NCBI GenBank assembly: GCA_945901845.1 | Contig: CAMDLR010000007.1 | Location: 1 to 64,000 of the forward strand | Direction: 5' to 3' | Length of the DNA: 64,000 nt | From: Sediminibacterium ginsengisoli | GTDB lineage: Bacteria; Bacteroidota; Bacteroidia; Chitinophagales; Chitinophagaceae | In this document: positions 56,302 through 62,563 of the stretch, piece by piece | How positions within the stretch are numbered: the first letter of the stretch is position 1 | Layout of the letters: every line of letters begins with the position of its first letter | The notes under the pieces: model-generated | What the model was told of the DNA's origin: nothing | Database searches by the model: none | What the model saw: only the letters and a program-made list of their open reading frames with translations | Translations under genes and position numbers: made by a program

Positions 56302-58488
56302 ATGTCATTACGTTTTGATGCAATCCGTGATTTGAAGAACAACCAAACCACCGTTGCAGCGAGTGCAAAAATTACAGGTATTTTTAATTCCAGCGTTTTT
56401 ACTGTAAAAACAGCTAGAGAATACCTCACCGATGAATCTTATAAAAGTTTAATCACTAGTATAAGAGGTGGTAAAAAAATTGACCGTTCAATGGCCAATC
56501 AAATTGCCATTGGTATTAAAGCATGGGCCGAAAGCAAAGGCGTAACACACTATACACACTGGTTCCAACCACTTACTGGAACCACCGCAGAAAAACACGA
56601 TTCGTTTTTTACCTTAAAAGGTGATGGAACCGCTATCGAAGAGTTTGATGGTGCTGCACTTATTCAACAAGAACCAGACGCATCATCTTTTCCAAGTGGT
56701 GGATTACGTGCAACATTTGAAGCAAGAGGCTATACCGCTTGGGACCCTTCTTCACCCGCATTTATTATTGAAATTGGACAAGGTAAAACACTTTGTATCC
56801 CTACTTTATTTGTGGCCTATACGGGCGAGTCACTTGACTATAAAGCACCATTATTAAAAGCAGTAGAAGCCATCAATAAAGCAGCCATCGACGTTTGTCA
56901 TTACTTCGATAAAAACATTACCAAAGTAACACCAACACTAGGTTGGGAACAAGAGTATTTTGTAATCGATGAAGCTATTGCCAATGCGAGACCTGATTTA
57001 GTGCAGTGTGGCAGAACCGTATATGGCGCTTCTCCTGCAAAAGGACAACAATTAGAAGACCATTATTTTGGCTCGATTCCAGAGCGCGTTTATGCGTTTA
57101 TGAGAGACTTTGAACAAGAGTCTTACAAACTTGGTATTCCACTTCGCACGCGTCACAATGAAGTAGCACCTGCACAATTTGAGTGCGCACCAATTTTTGA
57201 AGAAGTAAATATTGCCGTAGACCACAACACGCTTTTAATGGACATCATGAACCGAGTTGCAAAGCGTCACAAACTCGTGGTATTATTTCACGAAAAACCA
57301 TTTGCTGGCATTAACGGAAGTGGTAAACACAACAACTGGAGTTTAGCAACAGATACAGGTATTAATTTATTAGCACCGGGTAAAACGCCAAAAACAAACC
57401 TCATGTTTTTGACCTTTTTTGTTAATGCCATTAAAGCCGTTCACGACTATGCTGATATCTTACGTGCTGCCATCGCATCTGCACCTAACGACCATAGACT
57501 TGGTGCCAACGAAGCGCCTCCAGCCATCATTTCTGTTTTTGTAGGACAATATTTAGCCAAGGTCCTTGAAGACATTGAAACCCGTGTGGGCAGCAAGTTT
57601 GACGAGCAGGACGAAGCTATTTTAAAACTAGATTTACACAGAAGTATTCCGGAATTGTTATTAGACAACACCGATCGTAACCGTACGTCTCCTTTTGCAT
57701 TTACGGGCAATAAATTTGAATTTAGAGCCGTAGGTTCTTCTGCAAACTGTGCTATTTCTATGACGGTATTAAATACGATTGTTGCAGATACACTCAAGCA
57801 ATTTAAAGCAGATGTGGATGGTCTTGTAGAAAAAGGCGACAAAAAAGAAGTTGCCATCATGCAAGTGATTCAAAAATACATTGTAGAAAGTAAGGCTGTT
57901 TTATTTGAAGGCGATGGCTACAGTGAACAGTGGCACGAAGAAGCAGAACGCAGAGGTCTTCCAAATTTAAAAACAACACCTGTTGCACTTGATGCCATGG
58001 TTACTAAAAAAGCAAAAGATTTATTTGAAAGAAACCATGTGTATACCCACACAGAACTGGAAGCAAGACATGAGATTGAACTAGAAAAATATATCAAAAA
58101 AGTACAAATCGAAGCGCGCATTATGGGCGATCTAGCGATCAATCATATTTTACCTGCGGCGATTTCTTATCAAAATAAATTGTCTACTAATATTAGTGGA
58201 TTAAAAGCCGCTGGTTTAGGTGCAGATGCCTATGCTAGTCAAAACGATTTATTACAACAAGTAAGTAAGCACATACAAGTTATTTACACGCAGGTAAATG
58301 CCATGGTAGAAGCTAGAAAAATAGCCAACAACATCGAAGACACCAGAAAAAAAGCCATCGCTTATGAAGCCGATGTGAAATCTGCATTTTTTGATGAAAT
58401 CCGCTACCATGTGGACAAACTAGAACACTTAGTAGATGACGATAAATGGACCTTACCAAAGTATAGAGAAATGTTATTTTTAAGATAA
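56302..58488 (+). CDS. glnN: Glutamine synthetase type III
   Basis: 728 residues, the large GSIII form common in Bacteroidota and cyanobacteria. It makes glutamine from glutamate and ammonia. The N-terminal GSIII region has DRSMANQIAIGIKAWAESKG, THWFQPLTG and EKHDSFF. The catalytic core has GWEQEYFVIDEA (metal-binding Glu), FHEKPFAGINGSGKHNNWSL and FRAVGSSANCA. Full length. Transcribed alone, away from purL. Confidence 0.96.
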   Translation: MSLRFDAIRDLKNNQTTVAASAKITGIFNSSVFTVKTAREYLTDESYKSLITSIRGGKKIDRSMANQIAIGIKAWAESKGVTHYTHWFQPLTGTTAEKHDSFFTLKGDGTAIEEFDGAALIQQEPDASSFPSGGLRATFEARGYTAWDPSSPAFIIEIGQGKTLCIPTLFVAYTGESLDYKAPLLKAVEAINKAAIDVCHYFDKNITKVTPTLGWEQEYFVIDEAIANARPDLVQCGRTVYGASPAKGQQLEDHYFGSIPERVYAFMRDFEQESYKLGIPLRTRHNEVAPAQFECAPIFEEVNIAVDHNTLLMDIMNRVAKRHKLVVLFHEKPFAGINGSGKHNNWSLATDTGINLLAPGKTPKTNLMFLTFFVNAIKAVHDYADILRAAIASAPNDHRLGANEAPPAIISVFVGQYLAKVLEDIETRVGSKFDEQDEAILKLDLHRSIPELLLDNTDRNRTSPFAFTGNKFEFRAVGSSANCAISMTVLNTIVADTLKQFKADVDGLVEKGDKKEVAIMQVIQKYIVESKAVLFEGDGYSEQWHEEAERRGLPNLKTTPVALDAMVTKKAKDLFERNHVYTHTELEARHEIELEKYIKKVQIEARIMGDLAINHILPAAISYQNKLSTNISGLKAAGLGADAYASQNDLLQQVSKHIQVIYTQVNAMVEARKIANNIEDTRKKAIAYEADVKSAFFDEIRYHVDKLEHLVDDDKWTLPKYREMLFLR

Positions 58489-59013: not shown

Positions 59014-60351
59014 TTATTTCATCGTAAAGGTTTCTAAAAACTTTGTGGTAAAATTACCTTTTCTAAAATCTTCATTTTGCATGAGTTGCAAATGAAAAGG
59101 TATGGTTGTTTTCACACCTTCAATTACATATTCCGATAAGGCACGATACATGGTATCAATGGCCTCCTCACGCGTTTGCGCAACGGTAATTAATTTACCA
59201 ATCATAGAATCATAATACGGCGGAATCACATAACCAGCATATACATGGCTATCTACACGAACACCATGCCCACCTGGGGTATGTAGAACGGTAATTTTTC
59301 CGGGTGAAGGTCTAAAATCGTTGTAGGGGTCTTCGGCGTTGATACGGCACTCAATGGCGTGCATTTGCGGCTCGTAGTTACGGCCAGAAATTTTTTCACC
59401 CATCGCTATTTTAATTTGCTCTTTAATCAAATCGAAATTAATCACTTCTTCTGTTACACAGTGCTCTACCTGAATACGGGTATTCATTTCCATGAAATAG
59501 AAGTTGCGGTGCTTGTCCACTAAAAATTCTACGGTACCCACACTTTCATAATTAATGGCTGCTGCTGCTTTAATGGCCGCATCTCCCATTTGTTTACGCA
59601 GTTCAGGCGTCATAAATGGTGAAGGAGATTCTTCTACTAATTTTTGGTGACGGCGCTGTATCGAACAGTCACGCTCACTCATATGACATACCGTTCCGTA
59701 TTGATCTCCAGCAACCTGTATTTCGATATGTCTTGGCTCTTCAACAAATTTTTCCATGTACACGCCGTCATTTTTAAATGCAGCAGCGGCTTCATGTCTT
59801 GCATCAGCATATGCTTTTTCAATTTCTTCTTCCTTCCAAACCACACGCATCCCTTTACCACCACCACCAGCAGTTGCTTTTAAAATAACTGGGTATCCAA
59901 TTTCTTTGGCTAATGTTACTGCTTCCGCTACACTTTCTAACAAACCTTTACCACCTGGGACCACCGGAACACCTGCTTTAATCATGGTATCCTTAGCCGT
60001 AATCTTATCCCCCATTTTATTAATCATTTCGGGAGTTGGACCAATAAATTTAATGCCATGATCGGCACAAATTTGTGCAAACTTGGCATTCTCTGCTAAA
60101 AATCCATAACCAGGATGAATGGCGTCTGCATTGGTAATTTCGGCAGCCGCCATGATATGAGGAATGTTTAAATAAGAATCCACCCCTTTAGGTTTACCGA
60201 TACAAACAGCTTCGTCCGCAAATTTTACGTGCAAGCTATCTTTATCGGCAGTCGAATAAACGGCTACCGTTTTAATCCCCATCTCTCTACACGTACGGAT
60301 GATACGTAGCGCAATCTCTCCTCTATTGGCAATCAATATTTTATTGAACAT
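59014..60351 (-). CDS. accC: Acetyl-CoA carboxylase, biotin carboxylase subunit
   Basis: 445 residues. It carboxylates the biotin on AccB using ATP and bicarbonate. [26 protein letters not shown], the glycine-rich ATP lid [13 protein letters not shown], and [20 protein letters not shown] with ECRINAEDP are all intact. It lies 32 bp downstream of accB on the same strand, so accB-accC form an operon for fatty-acid synthesis. Confidence 0.97.
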
Positions 60352-60383: not shown

Positions 60384-60857
60384 TTATTTATTAGGCTCTA
60401 CTAAAAATAATGGCTGGTCAAACTCTACTGGACTTGCGTCTTCAACGAGCACCTTAACAATGGTTCCCGAAATTTCACTTTCAATTTCGTTAAACAACTT
60501 CATTGCTTCAATAATACAAACCACTTTACCAGTAGCTACATCGGTACCTACGTCTGCAAGTAATGGCTTATCTGGGGAGGCTCTTCTATAAAAAGTTCCA
60601 ATCATTGGACTCTTTATAGTGATTAGGTTGTCCGCCTTTGGAGCAGCAGGCGCGCTAGCTACAGGAGCTGCGGCTGGCGCTAATGGAGCAGCAGGAGCTG
60701 GCGCATACAACGCTTGGCTAGTTGCCGACGTGTAGGTTACAGCGGCCTCTTCCTTTTGCTTGATGGTTACTTTACCATCTTTATCTTCTATACTGATTTC
60801 GCCAATGTTACTTTTATTGACAATTTTGATTAATTCGTGAATTTGCTTTAAGTCCAT
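60384..60857 (-). CDS. accB: Acetyl-CoA carboxylase biotin carboxyl carrier protein
   Basis: 157 residues. The N-terminal helical part (LKQIHELIKIVNKSNIGEISIED) and an Ala/Pro-rich linker (about 50-75) lead into the biotinyl domain, with the biotin-accepting Lys in VCIIEAMKLFNEI and the thumb region FYRRASPDKPLLA. First gene of accB-accC, separated from efp by a terminator. Confidence 0.96.
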   Translation of the reverse strand: MDLKQIHELIKIVNKSNIGEISIEDKDGKVTIKQKEEAAVTYTSATSQALYAPAPAAPLAPAAAPVASAPAAPKADNLITIKSPMIGTFYRRASPDKPLLADVGTDVATGKVVCIIEAMKLFNEIESEISGTIVKVLVEDASPVEFDQPLFLVEPNK

Positions 60858-60927: not shown

Positions 60928-60960
60928 AAAAAAGGGGAAAATCGAATTTTCCCCTTTTTT
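60928..60960. terminator. Terminator after efp
   Basis: AAAAAAGGGGAAAAT pairs with ATTTTCCCCTTTTTT around a 3-nt loop, giving a near-perfect symmetric hairpin with T runs on both strands. 18 bp past the efp stop and upstream of accB. Confidence 0.88.
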
Positions 60961-60978: not shown

Positions 60979-61545
60979 TTATTCTTTTACTCTTTCTACG
61001 TAGTCACCAGATTTGGTATTTACGCGGATTAATTCGCCTTCTTCCACAAATAAAGGAACCATTACAGTGGCACCTGTTTCTACCGTAGATGCTTTTAATG
61101 CACGGGTAGCTGTATCACCTCTTAATCCTGGCTCACAATAAGTAACCCTAACAACAATTTTTTCTGGTAATTCTGCGCCAATCGCTTGATCGGTTTCTGT
61201 ATTAATAAACACAAAAACTTCAGCACCGTCTTTTAAAAACTGAGGTGCATCAATCATTTCTTCACCTAAAGCAATTTGCTCGAAAGTCTCATTGTTCATA
61301 AGGTTGAAACCACTTTCGTCTTTATATAAAAACTGGAAAGCTCTCTTCTCAACACGAACTGGGTAAATGGTTTCACCACTATTCCATGTTTTTTCAATAG
61401 ATCTTTTGTTGTCTACACCTTTTAATTTAGCCCAAACCTTTGCTGCTGCACGAGCCGTCTTGTTCTCGCCAAATTCAACAACTGAATATAAGCTTCCGTC
61501 TAATTTAAGGATCACCCCACGTGAGATGTCTGAAGTAGTTGCCAT
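60979..61545 (-). CDS. efp: Elongation factor P, arginine-32 loop type
   Basis: 188 residues, normal length. EF-P relieves ribosome stalling at proline runs. TSDISRGVILKLDGSLYSVVEF opens domain I and GLRGDTATRALKASTVETGATVMVPLFV is the usual domain III signature. The tip loop of domain I reads FGENKTARAAAKVWAKLK, with Arg at position 32, in place of the PGKG loop with its modifiable Lys found in Flavobacterium and Bacteroides. It resembles the NKSGRNAAVVK loop of Pseudomonas EF-P, rhamnosylated on Arg 32 by EarP. earP is not in the window. Transcribed alone with a TACTTTTG element upstream. Confidence 0.95.
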   Translation of the reverse strand: MATTSDISRGVILKLDGSLYSVVEFGENKTARAAAKVWAKLKGVDNKRSIEKTWNSGETIYPVRVEKRAFQFLYKDESGFNLMNNETFEQIALGEEMIDAPQFLKDGAEVFVFINTETDQAIGAELPEKIVVRVTYCEPGLRGDTATRALKASTVETGATVMVPLFVEEGELIRVNTKSGDYVERVKE

Positions 61546-61690: not shown

Positions 61691-62563
61691 ATGTCAGTAT
61701 TAGTTAATAAGCATTCTAAAGTAATTGTTCAGGGATTTACCGGAACAGAAGGCACGTTCCACGCTACACAAATGATTGAATATGGCACCCAGGTTGTTGG
61801 TGGTGTTACCCCCGGAAAAGGTGGTACCACACATTTGGACAAGCCTGTGTTTAATACCGTAGCAAGTGCTGTTGCAGAAACAGCCGCAAACGTTAGTATC
61901 ATTTTTGTGCCACCTGCTTTTGCAGCAGATGCCATTATGGAAGCTACCGATGCTGGAATCGAACTTGTTGTATGTATCACAGAGGGTATTCCAGTGCAAG
62001 ACATGGTTAAAGTGAAAAATTATTTGCTCGGAAAAACAACCAGACTTATTGGACCTAACTGCCCTGGCGTTATTACTGCTGGTGAAGCAAAAGTAGGTAT
62101 CATGCCAGGTTTCATATTTAAACCAGGACGTATTGGTATTGTTTCAAAGAGCGGTACATTAACATATGAAGCTGCAGACCAAGTGGTGAAAGCGGGTATG
62201 GGAATTTCTACAGCAATTGGTATTGGTGGTGACCCAATAATTGGTACCCCTACAAAAGATGCTGTTGAGCTTTTAATGAACGACCCTGAAACCGATGGTA
62301 TTATTATGATTGGTGAAATTGGTGGTAGCATGGAAGCTGAAGCAGCAGAGTGGATTAAAGCCAATAAAACAAAACCTGTAGTAGGATTTATTGCTGGTCA
62401 AACAGCGCCTCCGGGTAGAAGAATGGGCCACGCGGGTGCGATTGTTGGCGGTGCAGATGATACAGCAGCAGCTAAAATGAAAATTATGGCAGCTTGTGGT
62501 ATTCATGTAGTTGCTAGCCCAGCTGATATTGGAAAAACAATGGCAGAAGTTATTAATAAATAA
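61691..62563 (+). CDS. sucD: Succinate--CoA ligase, alpha subunit
   Basis: 290 residues. It interconverts succinyl-CoA and succinate in the TCA cycle with the SucC beta subunit, which is not in the window. The CoA-binding [42 protein letters not shown] and the phospho-His motif [13 protein letters not shown] are intact. Monocistronic, ending at a strong terminator. Confidence 0.97.

Follow-up and report, generated by a model that had tools for sequence, protein, structure and literature searches.

A fixed arginine at the tip of elongation factor P in Chitinophagaceae, with no EarP gene detected

We analysed a stretch of 64,000 nucleotides (hereafter the window) from the genome of Sediminibacterium ginsengisoli, an assembly of 2,110,304 bases in 48 contigs that is 97% complete. 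The gene of interest, efp, lies on the minus strand near the end of the window, in the following setting.

59014..60351, minus strand: accC (biotin carboxylase), part of the conserved efp-accB-accC order
60387..60857, minus strand: accB (biotin carboxyl carrier protein), downstream neighbour of efp in the same conserved order
60979..61545, minus strand: efp (elongation factor P, 188 aa), by TIGR00038 and Pfam; the sole copy found in the genome
61423..61470, minus strand: residues 26-41 (GENKTARAAAKVWAKL), the conserved loop together with the first part of strand beta4
61450..61452, minus strand: codon of Arg32 (CGT on the minus strand) at the tip of the beta3-beta4 loop, the place of Lys32/34 in K-type EF-Ps
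61691..62563, plus strand: sucD (succinate-CoA ligase alpha), divergent upstream neighbour of efp

Between efp and accB lies a hairpin of 15 pairs (60928-60960) that is flanked by A/T runs and is terminator-like on both strands; efp may thus be transcribed largely apart from accBC. An ORF of 728 aa at 56302-58488 gave no NCBIfam match at 1e-20 and resembles a type III glutamine synthetase.

The translation of the efp ORF contains VVEFGENKTARAAAKVWAKLKGV, in which residue 32 is Arg. The protein matched the EF-P model TIGR00038 over its full length (188.7 bits against a cut-off of 185.8), carried all three Pfam EF-P domains, and found its best PDB relative at E = 4.3e-39 (phmmer). Phmmer alignments with three PDB entries (1yby, 6s8z, 6rji) placed Arg32 without gaps onto the Lys of those proteins. 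An earlier note on this DNA had read Arg at residue 32 (codon 61450-61452), where a gap-free alignment puts the Lys of Flavobacterium-type EF-P; the translation and the PDB alignments bear out both points, and we concluded that the Arg-tip EF-P in the window is real. Around the tip, the protein has Lys29 at position −3, Thr30 (no Pro) at −2, and Ala31 at −1. A search of the same genome found no second EF-P or EfpL at E values up to 1, and in particular no second EF-P with a PGKG loop, the finding that the earlier note had named as telling against its reading. An EfpL/YeiP identity was rejected for the window EF-P, which scored 92.0 bits against a cut-off of 216 in one model and 79.5 against 264.05 in another. 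AlphaFold, run with 24 close sequences, predicted the loop domain poorly (mean pLDDT 47.7; blocks of 25-37 over residues 1-60).

The earlier note had also judged the loop to be closer to the Pseudomonas type. Counted by eye, the loop shared 9 of 15 residues with the EF-P of Pseudoalteromonas, which has earP next door, and 6 of 15 with the Flavobacterium-type EF-P. That judgement therefore held for the loop, but not for the rest of the protein, which the loop-free tree described below places in Bacteroidota.

We then read the loop across 147 sampled genomes of the window's family, which we took to be Chitinophagaceae from the titles of its named relatives. One EF-P copy was found in each of 140 genomes and none in the other seven. 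Loops came from 142 sequences in 141 genomes (the 140 plus one further family genome, with one genome read twice), and every one had Arg at the tip: 129 were KTARAAA, eight KTARSAA, and five KTARAGA, with Lys in none. The longer motif NKTAR(A/S)(A/G)AK was present in 140/140 of the EF-P-bearing family genomes. Among the best 80 named relatives, a set that overlaps the family set, 79 had GENKTARAAA and one had GENKTARSAA; these relatives include Chitinophagaceae, Sediminibacterium, Filimonas, Limnovirga, Hydrotalea and Deminuibacter, as well as unplaced Bacteroidetes and one bin titled Flavobacterium. Three family genomes that are 97-100% complete (G056, G117, G139) were without an EF-P match. 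In G056 an assembly gap is likely, because ValS was also below its cut-off there; G117 and G139 keep ValS.

The codons of Arg32 were counted in 138 sequences (123 distinct), all of which matched the motif that the script looked for. All six Arg codons were in use (CGT 70, AGA 34, CGC 17, CGG 7, CGA 5, AGG 5), and Lys was found at position 32 in none of the 138, though AGA and AGG are one step from Lys codons. Invariant in the same 138 sequences were Gly26, Asn28, Lys29, Thr30, Ala31, Ala35, Lys36, Trp38, Ala39, Lys40 and Leu41; in a further 84 family sequences, a few rows varied at positions 27, 37, 40 or 42 (for example, ARLK in three). The recurrence of KTAR in 142/142 family sequences and 80/80 named relatives, written with six synonymous codons, indicated that Arg32 is more than chance.

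Outside the family, we read 75 EF-P tips within the order, class or phylum: 73 had Lys (KPGKG), two had Asn (TPGNLRA) and none had Arg. This absence of Arg applies to those 75 loops, a set that leaves out more distant members of the phylum. The two Asn tips belong to two members of the phylum. In one other family of the same class, five of the seven members seen carried two or three EF-P-like genes per genome. Separately, one K-type EF-P match had a single TAA inside the aligned stretch.

EF-P identity was at least 59% inside the family and at most 52% outside it. With the loop columns left out, a tree of 80 EF-Ps united the family in a single clade (100/99) that has a stem of 0.25 and is nested in the K-type Bacteroidota. 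The EarP-type and EfpL sequences fell outside Bacteroidota, and the window EF-P stood apart from the EarP-type. The exact sister group was weakly placed (87/93), and only 11 outside sequences entered this tree. A first tree that included the loop columns (109 rows) recovered the same family clade (SH-aLRT 99). Long-branch warnings concerned one row of the loop-free tree and five of the first, with long branches meeting among the outside sequences; we relied on the trees solely for the family clade and for its position inside Bacteroidota. The efp-accB-accC order was common to six of the eight K-type loci compared, one of the remaining two being without both genes and the other without an accC match. 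Taken together, the position of the clade and the shared gene order point to one vertical, independent switch from Lys to Arg, which is the simplest account of the data. Horizontal replacement by an Arg-type EF-P or an EfpL of another phylum would fit the resemblance of the loop letters to EarP-type and EfpL loops, but such an origin was rejected by the loop-free tree with its 11 outside sequences, and the gene order common to K-type loci speaks against it as well; we give it next to no credence.

Searches for the rhamnosyltransferase EarP were negative throughout. At its cut-off, the profile PF10093 matched none of the 147 family genomes, including that of the window, and none of 296 genomes of the phylum, 11 of which are family members. 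Five partial, scattered matches below threshold (12-15 bits), including one from the window's own genome, were taken as noise. Because the 14 standard control genomes gave no PF10093 match, a Neisseria gonorrhoeae record, located by way of its EF-P, served as positive control, and it scored 378.7 bits by the same route. The published range of EarP covers betaproteobacteria and some gammaproteobacteria, together with certain Fusobacteria, Planctomycetes and Spirochetes (PMC5615199).

The residue before the Arg told a similar story. Three reference loops have Gly there, namely those of Neisseria (KGGRSSA), Pseudoalteromonas (KSGRNAA; earP annotated next door) and Aeromonas caviae (KSGRNSA; filed as EarP-type by its loop and place in the tree), and all 142 family sequences have Ala31. 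The G31A change is reported to leave an in vitro rhamnosylation rate of less than 1% in P. putida, where G31 is described as crucial both to modification and to function (PMC6544042); together with Ala31 of the family, this effect argues against EarP-type recognition. The same source reports full in vivo modification of the P. putida loop variants when EarP was overproduced, so that Ala at −1 would slow EarP and would not exclude it. EarP, one of the options raised in the earlier note, is ruled out for the family as far as a profile search allows, and the residue at −1 speaks against it.

Of the rml genes that the earlier note had proposed to look for, we searched for RmlD. It was over its cut-off in 105/147 family genomes, the window's own among them, and below it in 42, of which 39 (counted by hand) have an Arg-tip EF-P. 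Many of the 42 held matches of about 1e-50 that may be diverged enzymes, and so we treated the absence of RmlD as supporting evidence only. An EarP too diverged for PF10093, or missing from the assemblies, might still rhamnosylate Arg32: like EarP-type EF-Ps, the tip combines Arg with a residue other than Pro at −2, RmlD passes its cut-off in the window's genome and in 105 of the 147, and EarP in excess accepts altered P. putida loops in vivo (PMC6544042). Such an enzyme would nonetheless have to escape a search that gave 378.7 bits in the control and nothing at cut-off in either genome set, act on a loop with Ala instead of Gly at −1, and do so in 39 Arg-tip genomes without RmlD over cut-off, on an EF-P that does not group with EarP-type EF-Ps in the tree. 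We consider this very improbable.

EpmA and the neighbourhood of efp gave no candidate either. EpmA serves beta-lysylation and is present in only a part of the lysine types. Its model TIGR00462 passed the cut-off in none of 60 genomes and in two of the 14 controls; the best matches (about 230-255 bits, frames of 500-600 aa) were read as LysRS. We compared the surroundings of efp in 13 family loci (14-17 kb) and eight non-family loci (17 kb). In the family, accB-accC were the only constant neighbours. A set of 80 named closer loci plus the window, many of them cut by contig ends, contained efp 81 times, accB 71 times and accC 70 times, and the next gene groups reached 43, 40 and 39. No constant candidate modifier gene was found beside efp in the 13 family loci or in the 80 named loci and the window. 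The dTDP-glucose genes rmlB-rmlA lay downstream of accC in 8/13 family loci, and hutI lay upstream of efp in 7/13; seven of the eight loci with rmlB-rmlA also had hutI, and all belong to the more distant part of the family. Neither rmlB-rmlA nor hutI occurs in the window.

We next considered whether EF-P is still needed in the family. A DNA pattern for PPPNVTG, the Pro-Pro-Pro signature of the ValS type, was present in 57 of 60 family genomes, and in the three genomes without it ValS was also below its cut-off. All five pattern matches looked at (the window's genome and four others) lay in ValS, and three further ValS genes had the signature. In the window's genome, a second PPPNVTG-like DNA match (C14:18950-18969) lies outside the ValS gene, which is on C25. 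For Pro-Pro content, we set 20 family stretches of 20 kb (16 genomes) against 20 stretches from outside the family (15 genomes, same order or class). The family had 1.54 Pro-Pro per 1000 aa and the non-family set 1.21 (p 0.30), with mean observed/expected ratios of 0.90 and 0.70 (Mann-Whitney p 0.41); the difference was not significant. One family stretch held 32 of the 172 Pro-Pro and 18 Pro-Pro-Pro; leaving it out, the family value was 1.33 per 1000 aa (by hand). Thus, a loss of polyproline demand was not seen. The retained ValS signature and the Pro-Pro content, which is not lowered, suggest that the need for EF-P persists and that the family EF-P is seemingly required. A degenerate, nearly inactive EF-P in a lineage that had adapted through loss of Pro-Pro motifs or dependence on ABCF proteins would be compatible with the stem branch of 0.25 and with the sharp identity gap around the family, but the strict purifying selection on the loop, the retained Pro-Pro-Pro signature and the Pro-Pro content all argue to the contrary, and we regard it as improbable.

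The current view is that EF-P requires a long side chain close to the peptidyl-transferase centre, and EarP is needed by the Arg-tip EF-P of canonical loop length that has been characterised. Working EF-Ps without modification may have a precedent in Actinomycetota, where Lys, in a PGKGP loop, is unmodified. For the Chitinophagaceae protein, the reading that we favour, as probable, is a working EF-P with a third, EarP-independent kind of Arg tip, most likely unmodified as is reported for EfpL. The K-type loop KPGKG would have become KTAR(A/S)(A/G)A once, in the stem of Chitinophagaceae; Arg32 would then stand in for the (modified) Lys of an ordinary single EF-P, and we infer that the plain Arg serves as it is, held in place by the remodelled hairpin. 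For E. coli EfpL, MS found no modification on Arg33, and docking points to stacking of this residue between the C bases of the CCA end (PMC11611912). Ala31 of the family is also the residue found in the EfpL tip (TAR). Even in the Lys type, modification is not strictly needed, since overproduced unmodified E. coli EF-P is reported to have about 50% activity (PMC6544042).

Two considerations weaken this reading. The EfpL tip is two residues longer, which makes the comparison imperfect. In addition, unmodified EarP-type EF-P is described as inhibitory, and E. coli K34R as having only 20% activity (PMC6544042), so an Arg loop of canonical length might need modification; for this reason we leave a possible, if lesser, place for a modified Arg32. 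The modifier would be an undescribed enzyme specific to Chitinophagaceae and unrelated to EarP, adding for example another sugar or an acyl group. To reach full activity, the seven-residue-loop factors of E. coli and P. putida have to be modified (PMC6544042). The loop hardly varies across 141 genomes, the near-invariant NKTARxxAKxWA could be the docking site of such an enzyme, and rmlB-rmlA follow accC in 8 of the 13 family loci. However, no candidate enzyme gene is tied to efp: its sole constant neighbours in those 13 loci, accB-accC, are also common to K-type relatives, and rmlB-rmlA occur in part of the family only and are absent from the window. The fuller version, in which the Chitinophagaceae EF-P would be a class of its own whose Arg32 is activated by an undescribed arginine-modifying enzyme recognising the NKTAR-AKVWAKL hairpin, we regard as possible but less likely. 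The earlier note had offered EarP, another Arg modification or none; its list was partly supported, in that the last two options both stand and "none" is favoured over "other".

The family EF-P differs from each of the closest known systems. The EarP-type EF-Ps of Pseudomonas, Neisseria and Shewanella likewise have an Arg tip, a loop of canonical length, Lys at −3 and no Pro at −2, whereas the family EF-P comes without a detected EarP gene, has Ala and not Gly at −1, carries Trp38 and the AKVWAKL strand, and has a separate origin inside Bacteroidota. EfpL (YeiP) of E. coli and relatives shares the T-A-R tip (SPTARGAAT in E. coli), with an Arg reported as unmodified, but its longer loop has Pro at −3 where the canonical-length family loop has Lys29, and it is a second factor beside EF-P, unlike the single copy in the window's genome. 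The lysine-type Bacteroidota EF-Ps (KPGKG) are the nearest kin by tree, with 41-52% identity in most relatives read, and share the gene order in 6/8 loci; they differ in their tip, a Lys with Gly to either side and with Pro at −2, and the family loop and beta4 have been rewritten.

In the open-access literature, to which our search was confined, subscription papers lying outside it, we found no discussion of an Arg-tip EF-P in Chitinophagaceae or Bacteroidota. A 2019 survey gives Arg tips as 14.75% of 1166 EF-Ps (PMC6544042), and a 2024 survey gives EarP in 565 genomes (PMC11611912). Since these surveys count Arg tips in general and EarP genomes, the literature may already imply Arg tips without EarP, and Chitinophagaceae EF-Ps may well be counted in the published data sets.

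A family in which the Arg tip is fixed, EarP is not detected and the content of proline pairs is normal leaves two alternatives: either a rebuilt loop allows plain Arg to suffice, or there is another modification. If true, an undescribed modification of Arg32 would be a further chemistry of EF-P activation after beta-lysylation, 5-aminopentanolylation and rhamnosylation. The clean switch between this one family and its sister families offers a setting in which to test what residues of the loop make EF-P independent of modification.
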